Shown in pieces: positions 4,454 through 61,107 of a stretch of 64,000 bases of DNA. The notes beneath the pieces were generated by a model. That model saw nothing but the letters and a program-made list of their open reading frames with translations, had not been told where the DNA came from and did not search any database. The DNA is taken from contig CM034126.1 in NCBI GenBank assembly GCA_019914995.1, positions 2,361,001 through 2,425,000 on the forward strand. The letters are read 5' to 3'. The stretch's first letter is position 1, and each line of letters starts with the position of its first letter. Made by a program: the position numbers and the translations under genes. Source of the stretch: Acanthochlamys bracteata. Lineage: Eukaryota; Streptophyta; Magnoliopsida; Pandanales; Velloziaceae.

Positions 4454-5438
4454 TTTCACAACTTGTACTACTTAAAGCTTTTCTATTTATGATTTATGAA
4501 TATCGTGTTTTCTGCGGTGCATAATTTGGCTCAATTTGGTTTTACAGAAAGAAAAAGTCAAAGAAAGGAAAGCAAATTAGATTTCTATTATGGAGGACAT
4601 ACTTCGACTTTACCATACAAAATTTTACTTTTTCTAAACATATTTTTAATATAAAATAATTAAAATAATCTTTTAATTAATTTTTAATTTAATTTTAAAA
4701 ATTACTATTATAAAAATTTATTTGTATTAAATATATTAAAATATTAAATTTAATTATTTATATATATTTTTTTAAAAACTGAGATTACATCAAAGTAGAT
4801 ACACCCTATATATAACCTCTCCCAAATGAGGCTCAGGTTTTGACAGCGCGACTACGCTCGTCCCTGATGCTTTTCCATATGGTTAACACCTTACACAGAG
4901 CAAACTCTTGGAGCTTTTGTCACAATTATGTGCTAAGCCAAAAATTTATCCAGACGTTCAAGTTCCATGTTGATTAATTTGTCCAGACGGTGGATGTACT
5001 TTACCATTAGCGGTGGGAAGGCTTGAATAGACTCCACATTATAACGGGAGTTACCAAATTGAGTTGTTAACACTTAATTGTTTCTAAGAAAAGTTCGCAT
5101 TCGTTTGTGTATGTTACTCTAAGGAATGATTGTATTTATCAATATTGTATTTTTCTTTTTTATTTTCACTGTGGATGCTTGTTTGGTAGCTGGAAATATC
5201 AGTCTGTATGATCCACGTAGAAATATCAGGTGAATTTTTCAGATGGAATTCATTATTTTCTAGAGCACACAGAAGTTGCCCGAGGAAAATACAAAAACAT
5301 TCAACAGTAAACGCGTAATTTTCATTTCCACTCCACACAGACTCAAACAGAATGCCATGTTATCATATTCTGACTGCATATTCATGCAAGAGGAACGACC
5401 GACTCAAAAAGCCATTTTACGTCTAAGAAATGCTCTAG

Positions 5439-24738: not shown

Positions 24739-27700
24739 ATGGCGGGAAAAGCGGTGAGGATAACGTCGACGGCGCCTTGCGGCTTACGTGGGTCCCATCG
24801 TTGTCTCGCTTCTTGCCGCCGCAATCTTTGCGTTCCCGCTCGATTCTTCTTCTCTGAATTCCTTGGTGGTCGAATTAAGTTGCGAGCAGCTTCCGCTGCT
24901 GTCTCTCAACAACCAGCTGGCCGTCACTCAGTTGTTGCCATGGCCGCTGGGAGTGGTAATTACCTCGCTTTCTTTTAAATTTGTGTTTTCTTTTTTAGAT
25001 GAATCGAGGGAACTGTTTTTTGATTGCTGGATTTTGTTGAGTGCGGTAAGTGGAATGCGAATCGTTACTTATGAGACGTTGCGTTAGAGAAAAGTTAGTG
25101 CTGCTACTATTTATTTATTTTTTTTATATCATACGTTTTTATTGGTTGAATGTCTTATCTTGGTTTTGGGTTATATAGAGTTAAAAGGTTCTTTCCTTTT
25201 GGTATTTTTTAATAGCTTTTTTTTCAGGTTGGAAAAAAAGGAACATGCAATAGGTTATTGATTATTTGGTTGTTTATTTCTTTTGGCAATGTTGAAGTTC
25301 AATGGATGTGTAGTGTTCAATGATCTGTTTCTTTCGTTGTTAAATTGGTTTTGGGTGAAAAAAGAAACCTAAAGAAAAAGAAACACAGAAGAAATGGGTG
25401 TTCACTGAAATTTACCGATGATTTGGTTGTTTTTTGGTTGCATTGTGGAATATAAATTAAGAGGTGGGAAGCTTACGCTCTTCAACTCCAGCTGTGGATG
25501 AAAGTTTATGAGTTATTCTTAGAATTCAAGGTGCTCGGTAAAATGACTCTGAGAATATGCTTCACTGTAGCTTGAAAGTATACATGTCAAGTCATATTCA
25601 GAAGACTGTGCTGTCCTGCGAAAATATGGTGGTCCGTGTACTTCAGTTCGCATTTGTAAGCAACCAGTTTTGTGCACTTCGAAAATATGTTGTATGAATC
25701 TTTGCCAAAAACTGTTCTTTTTAGTGATTACCATGAACCCTAAGCATTTTCACTTGTTGCAAAAGAGTGCTGCTGCTAAACCTTAGCCTCTGTTTGACTC
25801 GTGCATGTGTTATGCATTTTGTCTTTAGTATGAACAAACTAATGCCTACATCATCTCTTCGTTATTTTGGAGTTATTCTCTTGATCTAGTGCCAATCTTC
25901 ACCACTATACTTTAGGGGAATGTCGGTTGTCAATGTACTTGCAAATTGCATATTTTAGCCCACCCACTTTATGTGCAATTCCTTACTGTCAACAGCATCA
26001 ACTGCATAGTCAGACTTCGAAGGTGAAAATGAGAAATAAGGACAACAAAAGAGTAGTCTGTGAAATAAAACATCGGCCTTTTGATGGCTAAAATTTGCAA
26101 GAGGTCTCTGTGATTTAGCTAGTGTTAAAAGCGGTCCCTAAGGTTTACTTTATTATGAAATGGTCCGTGAGATTTTGCTTATGATGCAAAAGAGTTCAGG
26201 GTTACTCTCTTATCTAGTGATAAATAGGATTTTATGTATGCTGGTAAAAGTCTCTGAATGTCAAATATCACTGATGATAAGTATCTAAAAATATTTTTTC
26301 CACTCCAAATAACAAAAATTCGGGATGATAGAACAAAAAACAGTAGGGACTTTTTTGCAGCATAAGTAAAACTATATGGACCATTTCATAACAAAATAAA
26401 CCTAAGGACCACTTTGCATCATAAGCAAAATCTTAAGGAATCATTTGGTAACAGTGTAAATCCTATGGACCGTTTTGACACTTTAGAAAAACCCAAGGAA
26501 CCTCTGGGTGACTTGGTCGTCTTTTGATAGAAACTGTTAACTGAAGAATGTCAAGATCGACAAATAGGAAAACTGTCTCAAAGATGAACATTGTGCAGAA
26601 TTGGAGAAGGGTTTGACACTTCAACGATGTTATTATGTTGTAGAAAGCTTAGCATTTGTCTAGTGAAGTTATTTTAACTAGGAGCCATACTTATACGCAG
26701 GCTAGGGAGGGATATCAAGTCTAGACTCTAGAATCGCCATATCCAAATAATTTAATAAGGCACATCCTTTTGGTGGAACTTATGATTGTCTAAGCATTTC
26801 TGATGTTTTGAATTATCATTTCCAAGTATGTTAATGATTTACTTTCCTTCTTCACAAAAAATTTATTTTCCGAGTATGTTAACTAGGAGCCACACATTTA
26901 CACAGTTTAGGGAGGAATGTCAAAGTCTAGAATCGCCTATCCAAATAATTTAATAAGGCAACATCCCCTTTGGTGGAAATTTATTATTGTCTAAGCATTT
27001 CTTACTTTTTGAACCATTTTCCAGGTATGTGGATGATTTGCTTCACAAAAACTTAATTTTTTGAACTTTGTTTACCTAAATAACATGCATGTAAGTCTCT
27101 GAAAAAGGTACATGAGATACATGTGCGTTTTGTTTAGTTTGTTTTTAGAATAGTTCTTCCAGGCGGTTATGTACTTTCTGGTATTGTACTTGACTGACAG
27201 AAGATATTTCTCTTGATTTTATTGAATTCCAGATTTCAAGCGAGAAGTTCCATTGAAAGACTACCGTAATATTGGAATCTGGCTCATATAGATGCTGGAA
27301 AGACAACAACTACTGAACGCATTCTGTACTACACAGGACGGAACTATAAAATTGGTGAGGTACATGAAGGAACAGCTACTATGGACTGGATGGAACAGGA
27401 GCAAGAAAGAGGAATTACCATTACACTCAGCAGCAACTACAACCTTTTGGAACAATCACAGGATTAACATTATTGACACTCCTGGTCATGTTGATTTCAC
27501 TCTTGAAGTAGAGCGTGCCCTCAGAGTCTTGGATGGTGCTATATGCTTGTTTGACAGTGTTGCTGGTGTGGAACCACAATCAGAAACTGTGTGGAGACAA
27601 GCTGATAAATATGGAGTTCCTAGGATATGCTTTGTTAATAAGATGGATCGTCTTGGTGCTAACTTTTTCAGGACAAGGGACATGATTGTTACAAATTTAG

Positions 27701-29867
27701 GCGCGAAACCTTTAGTCATTCAGCTACCAATTGGAGCAGAAGACACTTTCCAAGGAGTTGTTGATCTTATCAAGATGAAAGCAGTTGTGTGGTCTGGGGA
27801 AGAACTGGGTGCAAAGTATTCTTTTCAAGATACACCAGCTGATTTTGAGGATATGGCTCAAGAGTACCGAAACTTATTGATGGAAACTGTGGTCGAACTG
27901 GATGATAGCTCTATGGAGAACTATCTTGAAGGAGTCGAACCAGATGAGGAAACTATTAAAAAATTAATTAGAAAAGGAACCATTGGGAGCAATTTTGTTC
28001 CAGTTTTATGTGGCTCTGCATTTAAAAACAAAGGCGTCCAGCTGCTACTAGATGCTGTTGTTGATTATTTGCCTTCTCCAGTTGAATTGCCTGCAATGAA
28101 AGGTACTGATGTTGATGATCCAGAAAAGACACTTGAGAGGCGCCCAAGTGATGAAGAGCCATTTGCAGGACTAGCTTTCAAGATCATGAGCGACCCATTT
28201 GTGGGATCTCTTACATTTGTAAGAATTTATTCAGGGAGGTTGGCTGCTGGTTCTTATGTCCTGAATGCCAATAGAGGGAAGAAAGAGAGAATAGGCAGGC
28301 TATTGGAGATGCATGCTAACAGTAGAGAGGACATCAAATATGCTTTGACCGGTGACATTGTTGCTCTGGCTGGTTTGAAGGACACAATCACTGGAGAAAC
28401 ACTCTGTGATCCGGAGAAACCCATTGTACTTGAAAGAATGGACTTCCCAGATCCTGTCATCAAGGTAGCAATAGAGCCCAAGACAAAGGCTGATGTTGAT
28501 AAGATGGCTGTTGGCCTTATAAAGCTTGCTCAAGAAGACCCATCTTTCCATTTCTCACGTGATGAGGAGATAAACCAGACTGTGATTGAAGGAATGGGAG
28601 AGCTCCATCTTGAGATCATTGTAGATCGATTGAAGAGAGAATTCAAGGTATGCATTAGTTTTGTATATTTCTCAGGTTATCATAAGATCTTTTTCTCACT
28701 TTATTTTTGTCTCTTGTTATTACATAATTCTAAGAAATTGGAGTTTGTTATTAAAGGTAGAGGCAAATGTTGGTGCACCTCAAGTAAATTACCTTGAGAG
28801 CATATCTAAAGTCTCTGAGGTGCAATATATCCACAAAAAACAGTCTGGAGGACAAGGTCAATTTGCAGACATCACTGTCCGGTTCGAACCTCTAGAGCCC
28901 GGCAGTGGATACGAGTTCAAGAGTGAAATAAAGGGTGGAGCTGTGCCCAAAGAATACATCCCAGGTGTCATGAAAGGGCTAGAAGAGTGCATGTCTAATG
29001 GTGTTCTTGCTGGGTACCCTGCCGTAGATGTCCGAGCTGTCCTAGTAGATGGATCATATCATGAAGTTGACTCCAGTGTTTTGGCATTTCAATTGGCAGC
29101 CCGGGGTGCTTTCCGTAATGGAATGAGGAAAGCAGGTCCCAAGATGCTGGAGCCCATAATGAAGGTCGAAGTAGTCACCCCAGATGAGCATCTTGGTGAT
29201 GTTATTGGTGATCTCAACTCAAGAAGTGGACAAATTAATAGTTTTGGTGACAAACCAGGTGGTCTTAAAGTATAGTTTCTCATCCTTCTACAAATTTGAT
29301 ATCTTCAATTAAAATAACTTGCCATTTTAATTCGATTGCTAGTTTGCATATCTACAGCACATATGATGACCCAAACTACTACTTTCAGACGAGAAACTGA
29401 TGATTTAGGAGAATACCTTCTAATTTCTTACATCGTTTAAAATGCTATGAGACATTGAACTTCCAAAAGTTTGTTGTCATTAATTTTTGAAGTGGGCTTT
29501 ATCCTGTTCACAGATCGCTAAGGTCTTCAGGCCTTTCTATTTCAATTGATTTTTCCTAGAAGTTACTAACAGTCTCTTTTTTTCAAGAAACTCTCTCTTT
29601 TTATCCAGTTTTGCACAGACTGCCTTTATATAGGTTATAGTGTTTAACATCTTTCTTTATGTTTTACATGAGAACTTTATCTTATATCATATAAATGTAG
29701 GTGGTTGATTCTTTGGTGCCACTGGCAGAGATGTTTCAATATGTCAGTACTCTTCGTGGAATGACAAAGGGTCGTGGCTACACTATGCAACTCTCAAAAT
29801 TAATGTGGTGCCACAACATATCCAGAACCAGCTGTCTTCTAAGAAGGAGGAGGCAGTTGCAGCTTGA
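24739..29867 (+). CDS. Chloroplast elongation factor G (cpEF-G, SCO1 type) with three frame breaks
   Basis: Exons 24739-24955, 27233-28647, 28757-29269 and 29701-29867 join in phase. The implied protein, if the breaks are repaired, is about 770 residues. EF-G is the GTPase that translocates tRNA and mRNA on the plastid ribosome. Exon 1 encodes a basic, Ser/Ala/Arg-rich transit-like leader. Later blocks are highly conserved: DTPGH (27475-27489), NKMD (27637-27648), [53 protein letters not shown] and [12 protein letters not shown]. Breaks: one base missing at 27279/27280 gives TAG at 27289; one extra C near 27426 restores frame; one base missing near 29801-29803 shifts the tail, with the true TGA at 29865. 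One codon is also lost in the usual TKGRASYTM (here TKGRGYTM). Assembly error or a decaying copy; identity is certain. Confidence 0.93.
26086..26520. mobile_element. MITE with long terminal inverted repeats in EF-G intron 1
   Basis: The two ends are inverted copies containing AGAGGT(C/T), CGGTCC, TTATGAAATGGTCC and TTTTGCTTATGATGCAAA, over more than 150 bp per side. The 8-mer CTTTTGAT flanks it at 26078-26085 and 26521-26528, a probable target-site duplication. No transposase is encoded. Long inverted repeats with an 8-9-bp duplication suggest a Mutator-like or hAT-like MITE. Confidence 0.75.
26677..27063 (+). repeat. Tandem duplication of about 200 bp in EF-G intron 1
   Basis: Copy one (about 26677-26880) and copy two (about 26881-27063) both begin AACTAGGAGCCA, include CCAAATAATTTAATAAGGCA and TTGTCTAAGCATTTCT, and end with a CTTCACAAAAA stretch. 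They are diverged and lie just before exon 2. Confidence 0.8.
27279..27426 (+). other. Out-of-frame P-loop/switch I segment of EF-G between two compensating indels
   Basis: From the missing base at 27279/27280 to the extra C near 27426, the EF-G frame is displaced. The displaced frame still encodes the P-loop ([11 protein letters not shown]) and the segment to GITIT without a stop, so only the two indels are damaging. As written, normal translation stops at 27289-27291. Confidence 0.9.
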
Positions 29868-30683
29868 CATAACAATACTCACTTTGATATGTTTTGCAGG
29901 TGGACTGCGTAGCATGCTTCTTGCATATAGATCTTTGCCATTAAATACATCTTTTAGCCCCAGTTGTAACTACCTTGCCTTAGATACATCGTGCCCAAGC
30001 ATCTATACAATTTTTGTACATGAGGTATTTGGTCGACCATTATTTATTCCATTGTAGGCTGCCATGATCCCTGGCATGCTTGCTTTGCTTTTGCTTTTGC
30101 TTTCGTATTTAACAGTTGGGTGGTTTTTGCCTAAGATGTCCAGGCCTTCGTTAGGCACGAACAGCAGAGTACAGCATCTTTATTCATAACTGCATAGAGG
30201 GCACATAGTGTAAGAACGACTACAAAGTGTACACTAAAGAGAGTCGTTTCATACTCCGCTGACCCCATTGACAAAATACATGCTAAGAACTTAGCAAATG
30301 GCATACAACCAGCTTCCAGACCAGTATGTATTGAATTCTATTTCCTTAACACAGCAAGATGCAGAATCTGCTTACATTCAACAAAAATGGTTTCTCTCCT
30401 CGAGGATATTCACCTCTTTTAGAAACAAATCATACTTGTGGTTTAACTTTCAGCAACATGGCTAAGAAACTATGTGCACTTTTTACCAGATTTTAAGATG
30501 ACTGGCTAGGTATAATCATACAAATGTAAACAAGTATTGAAGGCAACTGGAACTCTGCTTTGCAAAACTGTAAGTTTGTAAAGAAAATATTTCATATCAC
30601 TTAAAAGAAAAAATTGTGTATGATCCACTGAGTACATCCTCAACAAGATTTCTAGGTGGTCGCTACAGTTAGCTGCAATGCAG
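29868..30683. other. Convergent 3' flanks of EF-G and the Jagunal-like gene
   Basis: The two genes point at each other here, so the interval should hold both 3' untranslated regions. In the shifted frame the EF-G reading runs on to 30057, which is not a natural C-terminus. From about 30429 the left arm of the inverted repeat begins. No gene is seen. Confidence 0.55.
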
Positions 30684-31204
30684 TCACGAAGCTCTTCTAG
30701 GTGACATGTTCTGCACAAGAGCAACTGTAATGATGATTGCAACAATTTGCAATATAATACCTGCAAAGGCTTGGAAATTTGACTAAGATAAGAATTTTTT
30801 TAAATGTAAGTTGTAGAAGGTGTCTAATGAGAAAGTTGGTTTTCATTACCAAGAGAAACACGTCCTCCCTCGACCAGTTCATAACTTGTTATTGATGATA
30901 TATCAAGTTGCTGGATAGCCTGGTGGACAACAAAGAAATAAGACTCCATGTAACGGTAAATAAGTCCAACAAAGTGCAAATAGTCACAGCTTCATAAGTA
31001 CTCACTAAATACTTGCCTAGAGTTTAATTAGTGAGGAAGGTAAAACAGAAAACATGATGCATCTAAGGTAGCTGCTAAGAGGCAACATGTAACAAATACC
31101 TATTGCAAAGGAAATCAGATTTCGGAAAAAGTCTAAACATGTTAGGAGTTTAATAAACAGGATAATATGGTCAGTTGATAACTTGCTGAAGCACTTTTAC
31201 AATA
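30429..31204 (-). repeat. Left arm of an inverted repeat (Jagunal-like exons 5-6 and flanks)
   Basis: This 776-bp stretch is the reverse complement of 32600-33369 with roughly 90 percent identity by eye. It carries functional exons 5 and 6, the intron between them, part of intron 4 and about 255 bp downstream of the stop. The spacer (31205-32599) holds exons 1-4. Confidence 0.92.
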
Positions 31205-32522
31205 GATTTGTTCAACTACATGAACACGCCAACTTCTTGAAAGAAGTCAAGAGATAGAAACAAGTTGCATCAGGTATTTAAAGAACATCATACACCATCT
31301 CTTAATTACGAAGAAAAGACCAATCAACTGTCCAACAAGTAAAGAATGGTGTCAAAGATAGTTACATTTCAAAGAGAAGATGAAAGATGGACTTAGTTAT
31401 GATATGAATATGAATTCAGTAAATGGATGAAGCCAATTATCCTTCCCCAAAATTAAAGCAATTAAAGCAAGAGTGGAGCATCTTCCTGTAAGCTATCTTT
31501 ACATTCTTGCCAGCAACAAAAGCCACACATGACCGCAGTTTCTAAAACAGGCTGTATTTCAACTGGCAAATGTGTTGCACAATTGCAACAATGGGATGAT
31601 TGGTACAAGTTATGCTACTGGATGCTAAGTATGGGCAGACCAAAGTTGACAATGTAGCAGCTCTCTCAACGTATAAACTTGACAAATTTATAGCCAAGGC
31701 ACATTAAAGTATGATCATATATATGGCCTTAACTCTTTAAATTTGTGTCTTTAGTCAGAATAAACAAATGTCAACAAGTCCTATAGACAGAAGTTCATAC
31801 CTTTATAAACAAATTACTCCTGACTAAACAAACAACTGAAAGTGCAGTAGCAATTGACGACACGATGAGGAAGAATCTTAGCAAAACCTTCTGACTCCAT
31901 CTCCGGCCTATAAATTTCGAAAACAAAGAAATGTACAATTCTTACAAGAATAAAAGCATTCAAAAAGCAGAAAGAGTGTTGGATTGCAAAATTCATGCAT
32001 AGAATTACTGAATAAGCAATCTTTACCTAGCTCTCCAATCAACACGGAAAGAAAACCAACAGCGTTTGAAATGAAGACAAAATTTTTAATCCCAGTTTCA
32101 ACTTTAGAACCTAAAATAAATACCAAGAGACATCCTAAAGCGTAGCTAACAGCCTGCACTAGAAAATAATTCAAATAAGCCCAGAATCAAAATTACATAA
32201 AACTAGCGAATCAAAGATATGAAAAAGAAGAAGCAGAAGAAGAGAAGGGATTTGATTTAACTTGCCTGAAGAACAAGAAGATTTCGGAGATGAGTCTTTC
32301 CTCGAGCAACCTTAGTGTACCCTATAAATTTCCAACAAAATCGAAAGAGAGAATGAGAGAATTAAAAGATTGAGAGAAACTTTTTCCTTTGAAGAAATAA
32401 TTATGGAGAGTAGTAGGCTGAGGTAGGTAGGGGGCATTACGGGAATCAACAACCATGCGGTAGGAGAAATCAGAGCCGTCGGTTCCTGTCGGACGACCGG
32501 AAACTGCTCTGCGCTGCTGCAT
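30684..32522 (-). CDS. Small four-helix membrane protein, GTDGSDF family (Jagunal-like)
   Basis: Six exons (32522-32441, 32321-32266, 32153-32027, 31907-31801, 30919-30850, 30760-30684) join in phase and encode 172 residues. The N-terminal GTDGSDF motif (13-19), then YRMVVDSRY, is shared with plant proteins annotated as Jagunal-like; animal Jagunal also starts with GTDGSDF and acts in the endoplasmic reticulum. Four hydrophobic helices are visible at about 46-63, 71-88, 97-117 and 148-165, and the tail QNMSPRRAS is basic. Intron 2 appears to use a GC donor (CAG/GCAAGT). Role in plants is not established; ER membrane location is inferred from the family. Exons 5 and 6 are duplicated in inverted orientation upstream of the start codon. 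Confidence 0.85.
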
Positions 32523-32599
32523 CGCTAAACTCTATCTGGATAACTATCCGTCTGACTCACCGCACGGCGGAGTAATGAATCCCAACCGAACAAGACAGC

Positions 32600-33369
32600 T
32601 ATTGTAAAAGTGCTTCAGCAAGTTATCAACTGATCATATTATCCTGTTTATTAAACACCTAACATGTTTAGAATTTTTCCAAGATCTGATTTCCTTTGCC
32701 ATAGGTATTTGTTTCACGTCGCCTCTTAGCAGCTAAATAGATGCATCACGTTTTCTATTTTACCTTCCTTACTAATTAAATTCTAGGCAAGTATTTAGTG
32801 AGTACTTATGAAACTGTGACTATTTGCACTTTTTTGGACTTACTGTTACATGGAGGAGTCCTATTTCTTTGTTGTCCACCAGGTTATCCAGAATATCATC
32901 AATAACAAGTTATGAACTGGCCGAGGGAGGACGCGTTTCTCTTGGTAATGAAAACCAACTTTCTCATTAGACACCTTCTACAACTTACATTTTCTTTAAT
33001 TCTTGTCCTAGTCAAATTTTAAAGACTTTGCAGGTACTATATTGCAAATTGTTGCAATCATCATCACAATCGCTCTTGTGCAAAACATGTCACCTAGAAG
33101 AGCTTCATGACTGCATTGCAGCTAACTGTGTAGCGACCAGCTAGGAATCTTGTTGAGGATGTACTCAGTGGATCATACACAATTTGTTCTTTGAAGTGAT
33201 ATGAAATATTTTCATTACGAACTTACAATTTTTGCAAAGCAGAGTTGTAATTGCCTTCAATACTTATTTACAAATGTATGATTATACCTAGCCAGTCATC
33301 CTAAAATCTGGTCAAAAGTGCACAAAGTTTCTTAGCCATGTTGCTGAAAGCTAAAGCAGAAGTATGGTT
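32600..33369 (+). repeat. Right arm of the inverted repeat (duplicated 3' end of the Jagunal-like gene)
   Basis: Read on the plus strand it repeats the left arm's minus strand, starting at ATTGTAAAAGTGCTTCAGCA and running to the AGTATGGTT edge near 33369. It begins only 78 bp upstream of the Jagunal-like start codon at 32522, so that gene's promoter must lie inside or beyond this copy. Confidence 0.92.
32883..33110 (+). pseudogene. Inverted pseudo-copy of Jagunal-like exons 5 and 6
   Basis: Exon 5 copy at 32883-32944 has a net loss of 8 bases after ATCCAG, which breaks its frame. Exon 6 copy at 33034-33110 is full length (77 bp), with the same acceptor context, the same NMSPRRAS tail and a TGA stop. 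No exons 1-4 accompany them on this strand, so this is a partial gene copy. Confidence 0.9.
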
Positions 33370-33475
33370 AGGTTAGGTTTTCAGGTTTAGTTTTGGGTTA
33401 GGCTTTACGTTAGGGTTTTAGGTTTTGGGATTTAGGTTAGATTTTGGAACTTAGGTTTAGGTTAGGTAGGCAAAA
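33366..33475 (+). repeat. Degenerate interstitial telomere-like tract
   Basis: A run of TTAGG-containing units (GGTTAGGTTAGGTTTT, TTACGTTAGGGTTTTAGG, GGATTTAGGTTAG and similar) abuts the outer edge of the right inverted-repeat arm. It resembles diverged plant telomere repeats (TTTAGGG). Confidence 0.75.
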
Positions 33476-34500
33476 TGGAATGGTAAATTAGATGACTTCA
33501 ATATTATGAGGATAGCCAAACAATTTAGCATACAATATATGTTAAAATCTGTATAAGAAATAGATGCATCATTTCTAACTAACTAGTATATTTTGAGAAA
33601 TGACTGAAATCTACGGATTATGTGCAGATTCTAGCTACACTTCCCAATATGGTGTCCTAAGAAGATTATCGTTCAAACATTAACAAATAGCTACATAAAT
33701 GGATTGCCACTTTGAGTGGAGAAAATGGAGAACATAAGCACAGGTTAACTTTGATTTGGTATTGAATGTGGCATGAGGAATAGCTAATCTGATTTACTAT
33801 GAACGATCATATTTTATGGGGGAAAGATATTCAGTTGTTCAGGATAAGACAAAGTTATACTAATATACGGCTACAGTAATATCCCATGACTAGTCATACG
33901 CCATAAATCAATATAAATATACAGGATGTTAGCATCTTACAACCTCAATCTCATAGTCAAATTACTCTAAGATATATTTCACTTCAGAAAAAGTTGCAAT
34001 AGCACCAAACCTTTCTTTGTTTCAGCTCAAAACAATAAAAATAAGCAATTCTAAACACGACAATCAACCAGATCTGAAAAGGAAAACTAAATTTTCTAGC
34101 CAAAAAAAAATTAAATACAAAGGTGCTAAACTATTCAGCTAAACTGCTCCAAACATATACTAGCTATCAGCTAAAGAGTTAGAAGAGGTGGATTATATAT
34201 GAAATTTCAACAAAAATGATAAACTACCTACACTCATTAGTAGAATATCAGAGCGATTCAAGTAAATTCAAGCATCAAAGCTTCCTACATTCAAAATCTA
34301 ATTAACTACAGACACAGAAAACACCAATGCAAACAACTACAGAACCAACCAAAACAAGTGAAACAACACAGCCTCAAATCAGATCTATAAAACATGAACA
34401 GAGATCTCACCAACAACTAACAGTTACATAAGCTTGTACCAATCCACATTCGAGAAAGAAATCTATCTAACACTTGAACCAAGAAGTCAACAATTCTTTT
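33476..34500. other. Intergenic region, no gene seen
   Basis: AT-rich sequence between the telomere-like tract and the leader-like patch at 34.5 kb. No open frame, splice pattern or repeat that I recognise. Confidence 0.5.
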
Positions 34501-34960
34501 TACCTATTTGATTGAGATTAAAATGCCTCGGATCCAACAGCATAGAACCGAACTACCCAAAAAAATGTGTAATGAGAAAAACAAGTAGAGAGAGCGAGAG
34601 AAAGAGAGAGTGAGAGAGAAAGAAAGACAGAGACAGAGAGAGCGAGGGATACGAGAAATATGTTTAGTTACCTTTTCGTAGTAGTCTCCCCGCTCGCGAG
34701 CTCGATTGGCCTGCACAACGGCTACAGAGATAGAAGTAGTGAAGAAAAGAAGACGAGAGAGTGAAGATCGGTGTCGGAGAAAAAACACGCTCGCCGGGAT
34801 AAGGGATCGCTGCGAGGATGGGTCGGAGCCGAGCGAAGAAGAACACCTAGGGATCAAGTAGGTGTGAGCGAATGAGAGGTGAATGGCTAGGTGTGTGTGA
34901 TTTTGTGAACTTAATAGGGTCAAAAAAGACCTTTCTACACCTTGGGAGAAGAGTCGCACG
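34500..34960 (-). other. Leader-like GC-richer patch with splice donor
   Basis: On the minus strand, a pyrimidine-rich stretch with many TCTTC and CGCTC motifs ends ACTACGAAAAG followed by GTAACT, a plausible donor near 34673. It looks like a promoter plus 5' untranslated exon. No matching coding exon lies immediately downstream; the next minus-strand coding exon is the Jagunal-like exon 1 at 32522. A GA-rich simple repeat (about 34584-34646) follows. The frames at 34504-34959 are of low complexity and not supported as protein. Confidence 0.35.
34584..34646 (+). repeat. GA-rich simple repeat
   Basis: An imperfect AGAGAG tract lies in the putative leader/intron region. CT-rich tracts on the transcribed strand are common in plant 5' untranslated regions and promoters. 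Confidence 0.7.
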
Positions 34961-35999
34961 CGTCTTGTTCATAAAAGCTACACCGAGTAGTTTTTTTTTT
35001 TTAAACTTATAAGTTAAAATAGCTTATAAGTTACCCAACCAAACACCCCAAATATATTATTTGCAATTTTAAAAAAAACCTATCCAAACAGCCCCTTAAT
35101 GTATTTGGTGAGCAACCATATGGCCCACGCATGTAAAGTATTATGTTTTAGTTTCTAACGAAAGAAAATTTCATCTACTTCTTCAATAACAGCGACAACT
35201 CCAGCAGTAATCCTAAATCATTCACAGCACACTTTCTTATGAGTTGGGTAATTACAATGATTTCTCTCGTATTTGATAAATGGTGTAATAAGATACATAA
35301 GAACTTGAAGAGTAGAAGTGTTGCCATGTCCGCTAAGTAATTATCTCATAACTAATTTTTTTCTTTCTACTAACTTATTTTCTTCTACTAACCACAAAAA
35401 TTATTTAAATGGTGCTATAGTCATAAATTAACTTTCTCCTTCCACTAACAATTTGTTTGGATTGCATAGTAATAAGAAGTAGGACGGAGAATGGAAGGAA
35501 CAGTTAGGAAATGAAGAAGAAGGAAGGGAAGAGTAAAGGCTTAATGTTGTTTGAATAATTAGTAAAGAGAAAGAGGTGTAAGATTAAATTGTGTTTAGAT
35601 TTGAAGAGTAAAGATAAAAAGCAATAGAAGGGAAATTATGAGTAGAAAACTAAAACGCCCTTTTTTTGTTGTATGTAATTTTTTTAATTAGAGTGTAAAT
35701 TATATTTTCTGTTTTTTTAAATGCTTCGGTCTCACAAATTGAGTTAAAATTTAACTTATTTTTAAATTATTGAAAACATACTTTTTTAGTAGTTTATCAA
35801 GAAATAATTTCTTTTATCTCCTTAGGTATATTATCATATCCTTGCGTTGAAGGTTCCATTGAAGTGTTCCTCTTTATAGTGGCATCTTGAAGTCTTTATA
35901 GGACTATGAAAAAAACACACAATAAAATGATTAACTTATCAAGTAGTGAAAATACTGACGCAATATTCAATGTATGATGGAACACGTAAATATAGATTT

Positions 36000-37260
36000 G
36001 TCAATTATATGCAAAAGTTAACAATCTAAGTATTACATTAAATATTGCAAATTCAAAATCCCAGGAATGATGAGAAAATACAAAACTATGACATTCTACA
36101 TAGACTACCAATATCAATTAAAGCAGTACATCAAAAAGCATTGAATAAAACAAAACTGCAAAAATTAGCTGATTAACTATAGAAAAATTGGAATAAGAAC
36201 AATAAGAATATCTATCTAGATAGCACCAGCTACACAAAAGATTGGAACCAGGACAGTAAGAATAACTCTCTAGATAACACCAGCTAGACATAGCACATAA
36301 AGAACCACAACAAAACCACCACACCAATAGCTCATTTAGTCATGTCAGCAATTGAAAAGTGCATGGTATTATAGATGTTGGAAGCACAACCATCATAGCT
36401 AACACTTGTTGATTACATTAATACATTTTAACCATTACAAGCTGATAATACAAAGACCTGATTACTTAAAACTCCTGATAGAGAGCCAATGTCACCCTTG
36501 GTGCCAAACTTTTGTTGAAACCTTTTGAACCTTAGAATAATGCACCAAATTGAGCACTTAGCTGTCTCAAGCCAGAATTACCAGCTATTGCAAACCCTTC
36601 ACCCACTCACAGCAAAAGGAAAGGTACAAGAGCAATGAGGTGAACCAACACCAGCAACAAATCAAAGAACTACGAAAAAGCTATCAGATTTAACAGAAAC
36701 ATCAAAGGAATAACAAATAACAAGAAAGCTATCAGCTACGTTCATCACCCTGCCCAACCCAAATAACAAAAATCTAAAAGAGTTTCCAAATCGGAAAACA
36801 AAATCACCAGATCCAACCAAGCCAAGAACCCCAAAAACTTTCAACTTTGAACTACCAGACCAACTTCTAAACCTAATCCCCAAATTCAATAGCTACCTAA
36901 GCAAGCTCAGATCATTCCTGACTCTCTTTCAACCACGAATAGCTTCTGTCAAGATCTGAGCTACGGTTGAAGAGATCAAAATCCTTATTCTTCCTAAATT
37001 CAATTCAGAAAGGATTCCAGAAACAATAAACTACTTTCACCAAAAATTTATCAAAAAAGAAGCAAAAATTGAACGCATACCTTTGGTAGTTGAGAGAGGG
37101 GAGACGAAGAAAAAGATGAGGTATTTAACTGATGAGATCGAACGGATATAAAGATCGCTGGCGAACTGGAGCGAGCGGGAGCGGGATCGAGCGGCGGCGA
37201 GAAGACGAAGAAAGCAACGCAGGGGCAGGATGAGGAAAAAAGAAAAGAAAAGAAAACCTC
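36000..37260 (-). ncRNA. Possible non-coding transcript or orphan leader
   Basis: On the minus strand a CGTC/CGCC-rich stretch (37230-37100) ends CTACCAAAG followed by GTATGC, a good donor near 37082. T-rich, G-containing sequence without a long open frame continues to about 36 kb. This is the look of a 5' untranslated exon plus leader intron, or of a long non-coding RNA. There is no coding exon with a recognisable family. Expression is unverified. Confidence 0.25.
36188..36293 (+). repeat. Two-unit tandem repeat of about 53 bp
   Basis: Both units begin TTGGAA, include AGTAAGAATA or ATAAGAATA and CTAGATA, and end with an ACCAGCTA-type stretch. Diverged tandem duplication without coding content. 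Confidence 0.7.
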
Positions 37261-47394: not shown

Positions 47395-47697
47395 ATTTAG
47401 TATTCCAAATGCTCATAATTTTATTTTTTTGAACCAATTTTTAAATTTTGAATATTTCATATATTTTAATTACACAAAAAATTTTGATTCGACTTTCATA
47501 TGCGAAGCTATAGTTCTAATTTTTTATTTGCACATTTTCTAGTACAATTATATCTTTCAGTTTTAATATATTTTTAAAATTTATTGAAAAACAAATACTG
47601 AACTCTATTTCTATTTTATTTTTCAAAAAATTCTATCTTTTATTTTTCACTTTCATAAAATTCAATTACTGGCATTTGAACACGCCCTTATTGAATT
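47395..47697 (+). mobile_element. MITE family A, copy 1
   Basis: About 300 bp ending GGCATTTGAACACGCCC. Interior blocks such as CAATTATATCTTTCA, TTTTAAAATTTATTGAAA and AAATACTGAACT recur in three other places in the window. Left end (TATTCCAAATGCTCATAATT) is the diverged inverted partner of the right end. No coding capacity. Confidence 0.8.
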
Positions 47698-48924
47698 TTA
47701 AAAGTAAATTTATACAAAATAAACTTAAAGTTTGAAAATAAACTTAACAAAAAAATATTTATTTAATATTAAAGTAAGTATAAATTAAAATTTTTAGTTA
47801 AAATTTAAAGTTTGAAATAAAATTTTGGATGGATAAAATTGGGTTTAAGTTTTATTTTGTATTTTGAAATTGAGTTGAACTTTAAAAGTTTTTTATTGAA
47901 AAGAAGTGCGCCTGTCCTTGAACTAGACACGCCCTAAACGAACATTTAAAAGTGTTTATAAATTTTTCTAAATAAACTTTTTTTTTAATAATAAAAATTA
48001 AGTTTAATTTTTTAATTAAAAATAAAAATTATATATATAAATATGTATGACAAATAAATTTTTATATTTTCAAAATAGTTAAAAAGTTTCTATACAATAT
48101 AGTAAAGATTTATAGAGAAATATGAAATTAATTGTATAAATTTTGTATACAATATTTTCATACATAATCTATACAATATTTAGTTATTTTAAAAATATAT
48201 ATTATAATTTTTATTATTTTTAAGATAATAAAGCAAAATTGTTTTTAAAAAAAATTTTAAATATTTTTTTATTTCAGAAAATATTTTCTGTAATAAGCAC
48301 TTCTAGACGTCTGGATCCAGAAGTTTTAATAGGGTTATTCTTTTCACCCTTATGATTTATTTATTAAAAATATTTTTATTTATATCAAAATTAAAAAACC
48401 ATTTAAAATTTTGTACAAACGAACAAAAAAATATTTTTAACTTCATTATAATAAATTTACTTTTGATAATTTAAATTTTAGTAACTAATATTTTGTTATG
48501 AAACACACTTGCAGTGCTTTTGCAGACACTTTTAACATTTCTGATTTGTTGTTGGTCTAGGCTTCTAGTATCATATGCCGGTTAAAAGCTATGCACCGGA
48601 TAAGCAATTTATAAGAAAAATAAAAAAAAAAGAAGAAAAAAAAAAAGATACCAGAGAGATGACGTAATAATAATATCGACTGCAAAAATAATCTTAAAAG
48701 GAAGTAAATTTTTCCAAAATTACTCAGTAAATAATTAATTTTATCGGTATCTTGTGTTTTTGTTCTGATAAATTATTATTTATATAAAGAAGATATTTGA
48801 ATTTTTGTCAAAGAGCCTATGAAACTCGATGTTATTAGCTTTACCTCTAAGGATACAGCCTTAGAGATATCTATGGTGTATTTCTAGTTGGACTGGCTTT
48901 AGATTATGAAAAGCCATGCGGATA

Positions 48925-49420
48925 ACAGCGGTGTAGTATCAAATTTCTAAACTAAAATAATTAGTCAATAATTTAATAATTAATTAATATATATATTTCA
49001 GCAGTAAATTAATTTTGAATTATTAAAGAACATAAATTATTAAGCTCAACAAGTAAAGGGCCTCTTGATCAAGTCAAAAGAGAATTGCTGGTTCTCTTCA
49101 TATTGACTAATTTACTTTTTATTTAAGTACCGTTCCTAAGCCTTATGCTACTAATTCAAATTTAATTTAATTTAGAAATCTAATAATTTTTTCTCAATAA
49201 CACACCGGATTACTTTATACTAACAAATTTTGATACTAATTATAAGAGTCCGTAAGCTAAAATAAGTAGCTAACTATTTAGAGATTAAAATCTTTAAATA
49301 TAAACATATGTTTATTCTAAACTCAACCAATATAAAACTATTAAAAAACGTAAAATTTAAAACTATCAAATTAATGCTCATTTGGTTCAACTCAAAACGA
49401 ACCGTAGGTTATTTTTAAAT
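48925..49420 (+). repeat. Dispersed AT-rich repeat, copy 2
   Basis: Second copy of the repeat at 39985-40490, in the same orientation, sharing TTTTGATACTAATTATAAGA, TAAAATAATTAG and CCAATATAAAACTATTAAA. The two differ by insertions and many substitutions, so they are old. Confidence 0.65.
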
Positions 49421-50750
49421 TGAATAGCACATGTTTTATTTAGATACAATCCTAAATTTTTCTGCTACTAATCGAGCTTAATGCAGTTTGGAGGCTCAAC
49501 AAGTGGCCAAATATAATTCCTTGATATAATGTTTGTTTCATCATATATAGTTTGCTAGGAGATATTCAGTATGCTTGTATATTTATTATTGTGCCTGAGG
49601 ACTTTGTTCTACGTTAAATATTTTTGATCGACTAGATAGATTTCTAATTACAAAAGACTTCAAAACATAATATGTTACCCAACATAAGATTAGATCGTGC
49701 CTCAATTATTTGGAACACTAACAAATGCTCATGGTCATACTTTAGTAAAAATCCGTGAAATAGTTTAACAAGGATAATACACGATAACTACACTTATGGC
49801 CTTTGGTAATTGGTCAAAAAGTTCTTTTATTTTAATTAACACATACCTGGATCTTAGTAGTCCTATTGAATTTATAAAGAGATAGAAATAAATCAGAAAT
49901 TCGCTTCATTTATGTTGTAATGTATGACAAACAGTTCGCACTACTCGTATTCGTGTCTCCAAAATTAAGAATTAATCTTTTTATAGACAAAATTTTCTCC
50001 AATTTACTAATGAGAGTGACTGTGACTGTAGCCAATTGTCCTGTAACGGAATGCAAATAAACAGTGACAGAATGTATATGTGTTGTCCTGAACTAGAATA
50101 CAATTTCTTTCAGATGTTTGTTTAATTATCAGAAAGTAATATGAAAGTAAATTTTAAAAATAAATTTAGAAATAAATTTAAAATATATATAGATATAAAA
50201 TTTATTAAATTTTGTTTGTGATGAAAGAAAATAAATTATACATAAAATAAAATAAAATAGGTCCCAAATATTTTGTTTGAATGTTCTATGGCTGGTAGAA
50301 ATAAATTTGGTTGTCCAGCGACTTCTTGCATGCAAGAAAAGAGATCTTTGCCAGGCTACTTTTTCTGCATGCCATAATAATAACAATTGAACCGAAATGG
50401 ATTCTTTCCAGAAAATTCTAAGCACATGATCAAACCAAAGTAGAAACGTTTGGAGTGCTTTTTTTAAAATAAAAAACATTTTTATTTAATTTTTCAAAAA
50501 TAAATCTTATTTTTTATTTAAAAATTTAATTAAAAATAATAAATAAATTTTATTATATTTTATTTTTTAAAAAAAATATAAATTAAAATTTTAAAAAAAT
50601 ATTTTATGAAAACTCAATGCCAAACCAGCCCTAGTAATTGCGGAGGAACCTTACCTTAAAACGGGAACGGGACAAAAACCACCTCCTTTTAAATGAGGAT
50701 GAAATGATAATAAATATATTTTTTATAAAAAAAAGAGAGAGATGAATAAA

Positions 50751-51045
50751 GGCTAGTTTCAAATGTTCGTAACTGAATTTCGTAAAAATAAAAAATAATA
50801 AGTAGAGTTTCTTGAAAAATGAAGTAAAAATAAAATTCAGTATTTGTGTTTCAATAGGTTTTAAAAATATATTGAAAATTGAAAGATATAATTGTATTGA
50901 AAAGTATGTAAATAAAAAAGTTAGAACTGAAATTCTGCATATAAAAGTGAAGTTCAAAATTCTTTGTGTAATTGAAACATAATAACTGTTCGGAACTTAA
51001 AATTTGATCAAAAAAATAAAATTACGGGCATTTAAAATACGTCTC
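50751..51045 (-). mobile_element. MITE family A, copy 2 (opposite orientation)
   Basis: Reverse complement of the family A pattern: starts GGCTAGTTTCAAATGTTCGT and ends ATTACGGGCATTTAAAATAC. Interior blocks TTGAAAGATATAATTGTA and CAGTATTTGTGTTTCAATA mirror copy 1. Confidence 0.8.
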
Positions 51046-51249
51046 TCCATGAGCTGTGGACCATTATAAAACTGATATGGATCTGTTTTGATTACGAGAT
51101 TAGGGTTGCACTGGACCATTTTGGTTTTGTAAAGGTTTAAGTACTGACTTGATTTTGGTTCTGTTCTTCATTATGAGATAAAAGGAATGTTGTACGTTTC
51201 CACTCTGGCGACGAAGACATGCATTCAAATCCATGGATGCTGGTAGCAG

Positions 51250-51415
51250 GGGGCGTTTGACATTTAGAGTACGTTTTCACATTTTATTTCATTCTATCTT
51301 TAAATTTTATTTTATTTTATATTTTTAATAAATATTTATATTTTTTATAATTTATTTAAAAAATAAAAAATAAAAACATTTTTTTATTTTAAAAAATTCT
51401 ATCTTAAAATCATCG
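51250..51415. mobile_element. Partial MITE-like element
   Basis: Starts GGGGGCGTTTGACATTTAGA and continues with about 150 bp of A/T-only sequence with inverted similarity (TTTTATTTCATTCTATCTT against TTTTAAAAAATTCTATC). The right end is unclear. Confidence 0.4.
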
Positions 51416-53823
51416 ATCCTATGCTTATTCTTAACCCGAACTTCTAGTACAAGTCAGGATCTATTGCCTTTATTACACTATTATTGCCTTTGCCTTATCA
51501 TCAGTGTATGCTTGGATGCTTCTCAAGGAATATTAAGATTAAAATTTAAATAAATTAAAGAAAAATCATACAGACTACCTAGATGTATCTGCTATAACCT
51601 TTATAAAGCTGTACCAAAAATAAAGTTTGCAATAATAAACAAAAGTTTAAAAGAAAATTTAACTTCAAGAAATCTAGGATAAGATTTACCTCTATTTTCT
51701 CATCTTCATCACCAGAAAATTACAATCAAAGGTGTTACCGAGTATAGAATCACTTGAAACAATAATAACTACTAAATATCAGTATGCCTAACGCCTCGAA
51801 TGAGATTTTTCTCCTAATAACTGCTGTTTCATAAGTTAGCGGAGAAAGAACAGATGATTCTTAAAAGACTGCTTTTTAGAAAAGAAAAAAAAACTGTTTA
51901 AAATTTTTAGAAATCTTTTTGTTGTAATTATCTATAATTTCACTTTTTTTCTCAAAATTTTGATTTCAGTACATGTTTCTATTATAATTTCAAATTTTAC
52001 TTTCTCTTCACACTGAACGCTATTGTTATCAAATCTATTTCAAATTATACTTTACGTACTTTGGTTATTGTTATAAATTTTATTTTTTATCGAATTCTAT
52101 TTACTAAATTTACTCTCACAAAATTTACTTTAATGTGATTGAAATCCGCTGTTAAGAATTAAATTGTGCCAAAACCCGCTTCTAGTCCCAATTTGATTGC
52201 GCCGAGTGTGATACAAGCTGCAAAGAGAAGTGCAACAACTCGAATAAGTTATGATGCTGGTCATCTCAAGAGAAAAGCCTCGCGCATGCACATGTATTGT
52301 GGACAATGTTTTATCTTTACTGAGTGGGATACGTCTTAATTTCATTGACGCAAATGCAATTTATCTGAAATGGAATTTGAGTGCTTTCTGACTCTTTAAC
52401 TAGTTCGAGTGCCTGGCATGGAAAAATTAGTCAAGGTAAGTATCTTTTATCATCTGAAAGTAACACAATAGGCTTCTTTTGTGGAGCATTTAGTGCCACT
52501 CTTTTCTTTAGTGGTCAGTTGAGACTCCACACACTATGTTCTACTTCTATTCTATCTAGTGTTGCCTAATCTTTTTTTTCTCAAGCATCACAAAGATAGC
52601 GAGATTGGTATCGATGCTTCTTGCCTTGGGTCGCTCTAAAGGATATGAACAAACAGAATGGAGAATTTGTCACTATCTAGTCATGACATGTACAATGGAG
52701 TGGAATCCATTGATATTCACTTCAAATTTACTATATGAATCACTTCTATCAGCATTGAAGAGTGTGAATTCAGTCCCATAAATGGACAAGCAGACGATTA
52801 AAGTTATGGGAAAGCAACTAAATAAGCAAAGATTATCCCTACATAAATTTTTTTAGGATATTCTTCCGTATTTATGCCCAAAAAACAAAAAAAAATTGCC
52901 GCTACCATTAAAACTTCAAGTTCAAGTTTAAGTAATGACAGGGAATTCAAGACGTGACTTGTAAATCCTATGCTATGCTGCATCATGACTAGTACAACAC
53001 TAATGACTTATGAGACGCACTTTTTGTGATAAAACATTTTCTAGTGCTATATTTTATCACAATGCAACAGAGATCACGTAAGATTTGCACGAAATTTGCA
53101 ATAACATAGAACTAAAGCTCAGTTTATGAAGGTTCCAAACTTCTGTAATTCTCCTGTGTATTGGTTTACGCCATTCTGCTGCTAGAGTCCAAAGAAAGTG
53201 TAAACAACAACAGGATTGACGGCAATAGAATGAAAGAATCCTTTATCACATCAAGTGAGGCGAGCCATTAGATTAGAAAAAATCTGAATGGTAAGCGTCA
53301 ACTTCGCTACTACCCTTGTAAGCAATCAGCTAGAGGTTGAAATGTTGATTCCTTGTGTAATGCATACTGAAACTTAATATACAGGAAAATTACAGCATGC
53401 AGACATCAGTAAATTCGCCAGACTTTTGGTTTCTTGCTTTCATTCCGGAAGTTAGCCTATAGCCTTTCATCTAAATCTTTTTATGACTTCCCGAAAGCAA
53501 CATAATGGCCAATCAATTATAGCACATTTCTTGTAGTCTAGCAGTGATTCTAACTCTGATGTGAAGTTTGTTGTATATATTCAGCTTAAATGTGAGATCA
53601 CAAAAAATGTAAAGAAACATATTCCCTACCAAAGTTACTTTTGACAAAATGGTTAGGTCCACTTCCCTCCATAACACTTCTCACTGTGATAATTGCGCAT
53701 CAACTTACATCAAGATCTTATAGAACCTGAAAACCTTCTTTTGTTTAGGGTTGCAAGGAACATGTGTAACTAGTAAGTGTTCATGTTTCTTTTCTCTAAA
53801 AAGAAGAAGTGTTCATGTATTAA

Positions 53824-54063
53824 GGGGGCGTTTGGCAACATTTCAAATGCTCCTTTATTATTTCACATTTTTCAATAATTTTTTTAATATTTCATAATTT
53901 TTATTTAAATATTTATAAAAATATTCTACGTTATAAAATCTAATTATTGCTTTATATTATTATTTTTTTAAGGTTAAAAAAAAAAGCTCGTTCTTTAAAA
54001 TATAACAAATGTAGTGTCTGTTCTAGAAAAAACTTTATCTCGTAAGCATTCCCAAACACCCAC
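53824..54063. mobile_element. MITE with GGGGGCGTTTGG-type inverted ends
   Basis: Left end GGGGGCGTTTGGCAACATTT and right end GCATTCCCAAACACCCAC are inverted partners; about 240 bp with A/T-rich interior and no frame. Ends resemble hAT-type MITEs. Confidence 0.6.
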
Positions 54064-54924
54064 TAATTACGATAACCTAACCTAGACATCATATCATCTA
54101 TGAACTGGAAAGGGAAATCATCCTTCGTGGGTGTATTAAAAGTGAACTTCATTTCGAGCCTAGCAACTAACTGGCGAGAAAAAAATAACAACGAGAAATA
54201 TGCAAAGAGGCTTAGATAATTTGACAAAACCTGGCCACCATGGGTTTGTCTTTACCAAATTCTGCAGACTTATGCATAACGAGAAAAACAACCTTAGGAG
54301 ATCCTTACGCGCGGACTACATAGGCTAAGAAGTAGATGTCATATACGAAGGTTTTGGAAAATTCATGCTATATTAATAGAAAAGGAGTTATTTCTACTCC
54401 TATGTTCTATGCTAATCAAATGCTTGCAGATTCATAAACAACTAGTCCTATCACACCTATGCATTAAACTACATATAGAAACGGTCTTACCCAGTGAGCA
54501 GTACATCTGTTGATCATCTTGGAGAGGTGCGTACTGAAGTTCCTCTTGTTGATTTCTTTAGCAAGGAGCTTTGATTGTCTCGGCTGCCACACGACTCCAC
54601 GGCCAATGCTCATGACCCCAGCTAAAACCTAGGCACTTTCGCGAAGTACCAAATAGCGGCCTTTGGTTAGAATCATATGTTAGAGGCCATGTGGTTGGTG
54701 CATTCCCATACGTAGGACGTGGCGTTTTTGTGAATGTAATAGTGATCATTCGGATACAAGATAGCTCCTACGTTCGATATAATAAAGCAGTTTGGGAATT
54801 TCAGAAGCATTGACATAAATTTGAAATTGCTGAAATTTAAGTTAGAGATAAACGAAACAAACACTGGCAAACGCAGTCGCATGCCACTCAATTGTATGGA
54901 AAACAAAACCGAGAGCCTCTCTAA

Positions 54925-55230
54925 CTAAGCCCCATTTAGCATTGGTTATAAAAAAATTTATTTTCTCTTTAACTTTCATTTTCCAAAATTTAAATAGTAT
55001 TTTATTTTTTTAAATTATAAAATATAAATAAATTATGCATTCATCAAATTATTTAGTATAATGTTTTTAATTTTTAACTAAAAAAGAATTCTTTTTTTTA
55101 GAAAAAGTACTATAAACTTTTTTTTATTTAGTTTGTTATTTTAAACAATTTGAAACGACTCATTATTATTATTCATCATCTATTCCATATTTTATAGTTG
55201 TTTTAACAACAAACCAAATATTTAAGTTTG
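54925..55230. mobile_element. AT-rich MITE-like remnant
   Basis: Begins AAGCCCCATTTAGCATTGGT and ends near TTTAACAACAAACCAAATAT, with an A/T-only interior. Ends are only weakly inverted, so the class is uncertain. Confidence 0.4.
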
Positions 55231-55808
55231 GCATGCCTCAATACCAAAACCTCAAATTTCTATCCAAGACGTTCCGCATGCATTCTTTGTGTTGCTAAGA
55301 ATTTTAATTAAACACAAACTTTACAGAAGGTTGGCCATGTAAAACACTCTTCTTTGTCGTCTACTTTTGTTTAGTAGTGATTTTCTTTTTTGTCGGTCGT
55401 TTTCTAGTATCTTCTAGCTGTTAATCAAACAACTGAGTTTACTATAAATAATTGTCCATGTTCACACGCGGAAAACAGTATTCTCGTACAAATTCTGATA
55501 TAAAAAATTACGGTAATAAAAGAAAACACTACCTGTCCGTCTCAATTGTCCTCACCAGATCAAAACCTTGAAAACGAATTTTTATTAATCATGGCAGTGA
55601 CTTAGGTGACAAAAGTTCAATCACGAATTTCTTCTTCATGGATCATCACCAACTGACAGTGTTAAGAAATTTTAAGGACTACGAATTAATTACGGTCTGC
55701 CTTCTGTCCTACAGTACGATGGAACTTGGTAATAGGAAATGATGTCTGTCTATATGGATAGTCATATAATTCACGCAGCTTCTGCTCCGTCAACTACTGC
55801 ACCAATAA

Positions 55809-56101
55809 GTGCGGGTTTCAAAACTCTTTCGTAATTTTATTTTTTTTTATCAAATTTTAAATTTTGAATAATTTATATATTTTAATTATATAAAAAATTT
55901 AAAATTTCATTTTCACGTCGAAACTTTAGTTTCTAACTTTTTTATTTACACATTTTTCAATATAATTATATCTTTTAATTTTTAACACATTTTCAAAATT
56001 TATTGAAATATAAATACTAAACTTCACTTCCACTTTATTTTTTAAAAAATTTTATTTTTTATTTTTATGAAACTTAATTACGAACATTTAAGACACTCAC
56101 T
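55809..56101 (+). mobile_element. MITE family A, copy 3
   Basis: Same orientation as copy 1: GTGCGGGTTTCAAAACTCTT at the left, CGAACATTTAAGACACTCAC at the right. Shares CAATATAATTATATCTTTTA and AAATACTAAACTTCA blocks. Confidence 0.8.
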
Positions 56102-56264
56102 AAATTGCTATGTATGCAACTCAGTAGTCGGTATATAATTTCGTACTCTGAAATGATTAACTCTTCTGGCAGCCTATGGATGGTGGCTTGACGTGAGGAA
56201 CCAAAAAAAATGATACTGAGGAGAAGCTGTTCAAATAAGTATACCACATCGACAGCCTAAAAGA

Positions 56265-56515
56265 CAAATACCCTCAATATAGGGTGGTCTAAACTTAGGC
56301 TGAAATTGAGAGGTTCAATTGGTAATGAAAAAACCGCATCAACTTGCTGGAAGGCAACAAATGTGTGAATACCCTCGAGGAAGGGGTTGTCTAATCTAAG
56401 ATGAAGCGACAGATTCCATCTCAAATGAGTAAATACCCTCGATACTTTTAAGGCCAACCATTGTGTGAATACCTTCACTACAGGGTCATCTAAACTAGAC
56501 AGAAAGTGAACCCAA
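56265..56515 (+). repeat. Degenerate tandem repeat with AATACC(C/T)TC units
   Basis: Four diverged units each start AATACCCTC or AATACCTTC, three of them preceded by GTGTG or AGTA, and three contain GGG(T/G)xxTCTAA. Unit spacing is irregular (about 50-110 bp). It is not coding as far as I can see. Confidence 0.55.
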
Positions 56516-61000: not shown

Positions 61001-61107
61001 ACTGGCGGTTGGGAAGTGGTATATAAGTAGGCGAAGGGTCCAAGTTTTACTCGGGGTCCGAGTACGTAAAACTTACGCAACGCGTCAATAAAATATCGCA
61101 ATATCAT

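Follow-up and report, generated by a model that had tools for sequence, protein, structure and literature searches.

A gene of the Jagunal family lies on the minus strand of a 64,000-nucleotide stretch of the genome of the plant Acanthochlamys bracteata (contig CM034126.1, here C1; C1:2361001-2425000), and an inverted copy of the gene's own 3' end lies just upstream of its start codon. We refer to this whole stretch as the window, and coordinates without a contig name are positions in it. Our genome searches covered 195.5 Mb in 557 contigs. To the right of the copy lie, in order, a telomere-like array, copied sequence from upstream of a methyltransferase gene, and the end of a PIF/Harbinger-type transposon with a terminal inverted repeat (TIR) and TTA (Table 1).

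The gene and the inverted copy of its 3' end

The gene spans 30684-32522 and has six exons, which together form one complete open frame of 519 nt (172 codons). Four introns follow the GT-AG rule; the second is a GC-AG intron (CAG/GCAAGT at 32264-32266, where the slash marks the exon boundary). The Pfam model for Jagunal (PF07086) scores 29.7 bits against a cut-off of 25.4, with a match that spans only residues 10-50 of the 172, and this bears out the name "Jagunal-like" from the initial annotation. A protein search of the whole genome (with a query that held two erroneous residues) gave eight matches, all of them at this locus; we found no other intact copy of the gene.

The initial annotation described an inverted partial duplication of the gene's 3' end, with arms that are about 90% identical and a 1.4-kb spacer that holds exons 1-4. 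Both an alignment and a repeat finder confirm this. Local alignment of arm 1 with the reverse complement of arm 2 has 795 columns and 713 matches, or 92.2% identity over ungapped columns, with 22 gap columns in 7 indels. BLAST aligns 30428-31205 with 32599-33369 (784 columns, 90.2%), and the repeat finder reports the match as five separate inverted pairs, each 104-237 bp long and 90-94% identical. The repeated segment covers the end of intron 4, then exon 5, intron 5, exon 6 and roughly 250 bp past the stop codon. In the gene itself, the left arm holds exons 5-6, and the spacer of 1.37-1.39 kb holds exons 1-4. The inner edge of arm 2 is indeed close to the start codon, at 65-76 bp upstream of the ATG instead of the 78 bp first given; the range is set by the choice of alignment.

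The match between the arms is far beyond chance. A genome search with arm 1 found three places: arm 1 itself, arm 2, and a remnant on contig C2 (C2:2507477-2507791, 74%). We also surveyed 158,009 bases for inverted pairs of at least 150 bp and at least 75% identity and found four, among which the arm pair is the sole one above 80% identity and 300 bp; this sample is small, was mostly picked because it contains transposons or belongs to this locus, and gives no genome-wide rate.

Table 1. Positions of the gene, the two arms and the features to their right, in window coordinates.
Feature	Position	Strand	Basis
Exon 1, ATG at 32522	32441..32522	-	open frame, donor, Pfam PF07086
Exon 2, followed by the GC-AG intron	32266..32321	-	open frame/splice sites
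Exon 3	32027..32153	-	open frame/splice sites
Exon 4	31801..31907	-	open frame/splice sites
Exon 5, within arm 1	30850..30919	-	open frame/splice sites
Exon 6 with stop, within arm 1	30684..30760	-	open frame; 4/4 arm-1-derived changes synonymous
Arm 1, ancestral position (intron 4 part, exon 5, intron 5, exon 6, 3' flank)	30428..31213	-	alignment; 3' part collinear with homeolog C2:2507477-2507792
Arm 2, derived inverted copy of arm 1	32588..33369	+	alignment, genome search
Exon 5' of the copy, 8-bp deletion (frameshift)	32883..32944	+	alignment
Exon 6' of the copy	33034..33110	+	alignment
Degenerate telomere-like (TTTAGGG-like) minisatellite	33370..33477	+	similar arrays inside PIF/Harbinger relatives
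Copy of the region upstream of a Methyltransf_29 gene, C3:3986990-3988160	33478..34661	-	K = 0.128, Pfam
PIF/Harbinger-type transposon end ("leader-like patch" of the initial annotation)	34654..35095	-	genome repeat, 46 match rows
Terminal inverted repeat GGGGCTGTTTGGATAGG, then TTA outside at 35096-35098	35079..35095	-	pattern search

An 18-kb stretch of C2 is collinear with 21.8-42.1 kb of the window, and because of this collinearity we read it as the homeolog. The C2 remnant (about C2:2507477-2507799, in L005) comprises exon 6 and the 3' flank, is oriented like arm 1, and adjoins the same neighbour (window 26923-30116 versus C2, 84%). Because the remnant keeps the place, orientation and neighbour of arm 1, it shows arm 1 to be in the ancestral place and arm 2 to be the copy. 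The two arms differ at 62 of 772 sites (divergence K = 0.085), and each arm differs from C2 by K = 0.40 (369 sites for arm 1 and 365 for arm 2), which puts the duplication at about one fifth of the age of the homeolog split, as measured by K. Polarized with C2, 15 changes fall on arm 1 and 13 on arm 2; three sites differ in all. In the C2 region, the Jagunal-family gene is cut down to exon 6 and the 3' flank, and exons 1-5 were not found in the 18-kb stretch.

The arms also bear on whether the gene has been maintained. There are six differences in exon 6, of which four arose on arm 1, all synonymous; one arose on arm 2 and changes an amino acid; and one could not be polarized. The copy has lost 8 bp in its exon 5', which shifts the frame. 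In 20,000 simulations, with substitution and indel rates taken from the differences between the arms, a neutral frame as long as this one was still open in 4.6% of runs, or in 2.0% if the splice dinucleotides had to be kept as well. This suggests that the gene has probably been under selection since the duplication; the evidence is moderate, because C2 is distant as an outgroup and the sites number only four. Divergence by part is 0.082 in intron 4, 0.064 in exon 5, 0.123 in intron 5, 0.085 in exon 6, and 0.082 in the 3' flank. The lack of a clear trough at the exons either argues against strong constraint or reflects how little sequence these short exons offer.

A transposon end and a copied methyltransferase leader

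The initial annotation saw a "leader-like patch near 34.9 kb." It did not recognize that this patch is the end of a PIF/Harbinger-type element, joined to a copied methyltransferase leader. The repeat at 34654-35095 has 46 rows of matches in the genome (this count includes the repeat itself, and some places have several rows). Its right TIR matches with no mismatches, while 23 of 100 shuffled sequences give some match with up to three. A relative of this element, L040, encodes frames with matches to DDE_Tnp_4 (31.4 bits) and Myb_DNA-bind_3 (63.1 bits); for a further frame between these two (4260-4814), no Pfam family matched. Four relatives have both ends, and in three of them the 3-bp flanks match: TAA in L040 (if the first A is counted as flank), TTA in L043, and GAA in L027. 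The flanks do not match in L032, whose right end is shortened. (L041 and L042 are outside this count because their far ends were not recovered.) For comparison, the PIF/Harbinger pattern tabulated in PMC4423477 is a TAA/TTA target with GG(G/C)CC ends. The element family is of the PIF/Harbinger type.

The copy in the window has no recognizable left end: neither pattern search nor alignment found a left TIR or end near the gene. The best score of the family's left 60 bp within 31300-34700 was 13-15, as compared to 35-52 between true copies; control searches gave 13-19 in two other stretches of the window, which at 11 kb each offered more chances. Arm 2 occupies the place that would be expected for the rest of the element, and the right TTA is all that remains of the target duplication. 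A Pack-type element has a gene piece between two TIRs; here there are gene pieces, and a second TIR was not found.

L040, L041 and L042 have the same transposon end and a longer telomere-like array, in the same order as in the window. Inside these relatives the array is about 500 bp long (L040:6258-6762, L041:5522-6045 and L042:4530-5040), versus about 108 bp in the window, and in L040 the transposon end flanks it on one side and the Myb-like frame on the other. The window array matches those of L040-L042 at 81% over 84 bp, and it matches a site at C10:6233434 at 89% over 62 bp. We considered whether the array might be filler made by telomerase and tentatively set this aside because the transposon relatives carry a similar array in the same order.

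The methyltransferase piece (33478-34661) differs from C3:3986990-3988160 by K = 0.128 over 1148 sites. On C3, the source stretch precedes a methyltransferase frame (Methyltransf_29, 64.2 bits) and has a homeologous stretch on C5. The captured piece ends about 440 bp before the likely ATG of the methyltransferase gene, which leaves out that gene's likely acceptor. Without it, a transcript from the leader would need another acceptor, such as exon 2 at 32321. On the minus strand, near 34.50 kb, there is a donor-like site (ATAG/GTAAAA) that is also present in C18; C3 has ATAG/GTAG or a GTAG-like form, and the site is lost in C1:8277 and C5. A second donor-like site (AAAAG/GTAAC) lies near 34.67 kb, in the transposon end. 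From the positions of these sites, arm 2 could be spliced out as an intron of a leader transcript.

The same methyltransferase upstream region is found at at least three ends of the transposon family (in the window, in C18, and in C1:8277). The region and its copies lie at 33478-34661 in the window, L036:6991-8161, L037:7360-7740 (C18), and L038:1507-1936 (C1:8277). These ends differ by K of 0.34-0.52 and the captured pieces by 0.14-0.17, a contrast that led us to consider whether several transposon ends captured the piece separately. We tentatively set this aside, because C18 and C1:8277 share near-equal capture boundaries (34162 or 34169 to 34552) yet their ends differ just as much (K = 0.40), so that the ends may diverge faster or align badly.

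Elsewhere in the window, A/T-rich dispersed repeats, both direct and inverted, occur across 47400-61587 (about 60-300 bp, 60-81% identity), around 47.4-47.7, 50.5-51.0, 55.8-56.1 and 61.3-61.6 kb. There are also two-copy tandem repeats at 63763-63888 (63 bp, 89%) and 2024-2169 (73 bp, 75%).

Origin of the inverted copy

We think that the locus is probably a rearrangement scar, left by break repair (with filler or a template switch) at a broken transposon beside a working gene. A PIF/Harbinger-type element with the copied methyltransferase leader would have come to lie upstream of the gene, and its gene-facing side would later have been lost. The break would then have been closed with inverted filler templated by the gene's own 3' end; loss and filling may have been one event. 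Candidate routes include fold-back priming, template switching and synthesis-dependent strand annealing. For instance, a 3' end at about -70 from the ATG might have been extended on the gene's 3' part in a fold-back and then joined to the interior of the element. Divergence is greater for the methyltransferase piece (0.13) than between the arms (0.085), which fits this order. Foreign sequence at former transposon sites has been described in rice, where 8 of 94 putative excisions of DNA transposons were perfect and 58 had filler DNA (PMC4423477). In yeast, breaks can yield templated fold-back inverted duplications, mostly of about 5-34 bp (PMC11724301). Because the filler here is far longer than in either the yeast or the rice cases, the repair route is only inferred. 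Since the gene is probably under selection, its transcription would presumably be driven either by the 65-76 bp that are left, together with the copy, or by the transposon/methyltransferase leader.

Several points weigh against a repair scar. The fillers in the rice study average 13 bp and reach 123 bp (PMC4423477), versus about 780 bp here. The telomere-like array fits arrays at contig ends almost equally well (73-82% over about 60-110 bp) and may not be transposon sequence. At the inner junction, a disturbance of 2 to 5 bases is followed by TTGTTC, which occurs both in the gene's 5' flank and at the end of arm 1; these six bases could have primed the copying as microhomology, or they are no more than the end of the arm. 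The proposed order and cause of events depend on divergence values of single copies. Finally, the target duplication on the left side has been lost, and with it the proof that the element inserted here.

The copy might instead have reached its place in other ways. A Pack-type transposon could have captured the gene's 3' end first and then, by chance, inserted beside the donor. The element does hold another copied gene piece, and Pack-PIF elements have been described in maize (PMC8903248), but no left TIR was found between the ATG and arm 2, no further copy of the captured piece was found in the genome, and, unless the movement was local, the element would have had to hit by coincidence a point 65-76 bp from the ATG of its own donor. 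We consider this unlikely. A decidedly unlikely history is that the whole gene was duplicated in inverted orientation and the second copy was afterwards trimmed by deletion to its 3' end. A shortened second gene would be compatible with the head-to-head geometry, but the copy stops sharply in intron 4 next to the first gene's 5' flank, and we found no second copy of exons 1-4: the arms are the sole long inverted match in 28-38 kb. Inverted repeats are prone to assembly artefacts, and a misassembly or chimeric read could produce such a structure. However, an artefact would be near-identical to its source, and these arms have diverged by 8%, each has acquired changes, and 7 indels separate them; this makes an artefact very unlikely, to the point that we give it almost no weight. 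The repair scar is the explanation that we favour. As it stands, the locus looks like an ordinary rearrangement scar, and the potential hairpin would be a by-product.

Hairpin potential and related systems

As the initial annotation had proposed, both arms would be present in a minus-strand transcript that starts near 34.9 kb and stays unspliced, and such an RNA could fold. For RNA from 33400 to 30400, the predicted minimum free energy is -1506 kcal/mol, with 728 arm-to-arm pairs; with arm 2 shuffled (three shuffles), it is -684 to -694 kcal/mol. The arms have 12 exact runs of at least 21 bp in common, the longest being 58 bp. In this model, a read-through transcript could serve as a long Dicer-type substrate. 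Rfam covariance models gave no matches at the gathering threshold in 29000-37000.

Traces of past methylation are ambiguous. Just 6 of the 28 polarized arm changes are of the C>T or G>A type. The ratio of transitions to transversions is 33:29 in the arms, 79:55 in the methyltransferase piece, and 260:197 in the neighbouring gene. Both results argue against methylation. The ratio of observed to expected CpG is 0.25 and 0.37 in the arms; the methyltransferase piece has 0.40, the spacer 0.59, and the window as a whole 0.57. The low CpG in the arms would fit past methylation. Because arm 1 shows low CpG at the ancestral place, the depletion may predate the duplication.

These data bear on the possibility that the locus is a self-targeting hairpin: the leader would drive a minus-strand RNA that runs first through arm 2 as antisense, then through the gene, and finally through arm 1 as sense, and Dicer-made small RNAs would tune or methylate the gene. 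The geometry, the strong pairing, the low CpG of both arms, and a transposon end with donor-like sites that faces the gene are consistent with this, and at PAI1-PAI4 a minority of transcripts reach the second arm and fold back (PMC3203196). Nevertheless, we doubt it: the substitution pattern in the arms does not stand out from the comparison alignments, the low CpG is possibly older, the gene's frame stayed intact, splicing from an upstream donor could take out arm 2, and no Rfam family matched in the region searched. A longer shot is that the broken transposon not only supplied a new promoter but also set off the inverted copying, making the sole intact gene a unit that keeps its own level down through small RNAs; this unit would have lasted for a long time because mismatches between the arms shield the locus from self-methylation. 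Each read-through transcript would then carry the first exons between antisense and sense copies of its own 3' end. This idea is based on a report that inverted-repeat mismatches lowered self-methylation of hairpin transgenes (PMC9263138), which would leave room for a hairpin to persist at 8% divergence.

The structure is of a known kind. The duplication that was initially annotated is confirmed, its origin is reinterpreted here, and the silencing consequence is unproven. It resembles repair after transposon excision (PMC4423477) in that foreign DNA fills the damaged site of a transposon, but the filler of about 780 bp is inverted, was copied from 1.4 kb away, and is far longer than in the rice cases. 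As in Pack-PIF elements, there is a TIR (GGGGCTGTTTGG), a 3-bp TTA/TAA target, and a copied gene piece; unlike in those elements, the left end was not found, the piece is a leader region instead of coding exons, and there is a telomere-like minisatellite.

Among silenced plant genes, the rice Lgc1 locus is an inverted repeat. Lgc1 and the soybean CHS genes are examples of natural RNA silencing, which for CHS is linked to an inverted repeat (PMC3608071); here, in contrast, the gene is single-copy and any silencing is putative. The PAI1-PAI4 locus of Arabidopsis Ws, as described in PMC3203196, is similar in that inverted copies of an endogenous gene are fused to a heterologous upstream promoter and a read-through transcript can fold back. 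However, the PAI genes are two and lie tail-to-tail, with demonstrated methylation and small RNAs, whereas here a 3' fragment lies on the head side and has diverged by 8%.

In the inverted-duplication model for the origin of plant microRNAs (miRNAs), a segment of the target gene is inverted, often in association with a transposon (PMC3237417), as it is here; this locus differs in that it has no defined miRNA-like short hairpin, and in that the first exons of the gene lie between the copy and its source. The locus offers a datable and polarized case of a gene-fragment inverted repeat arising at a broken DNA transposon, and such a repeat is the starting structure in the inverted-duplication model for plant small-RNA genes. 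Because the only intact copy of the gene lies within it and is probably under selection, the locus would test whether a genome can carry a structure like this without the gene silencing itself.

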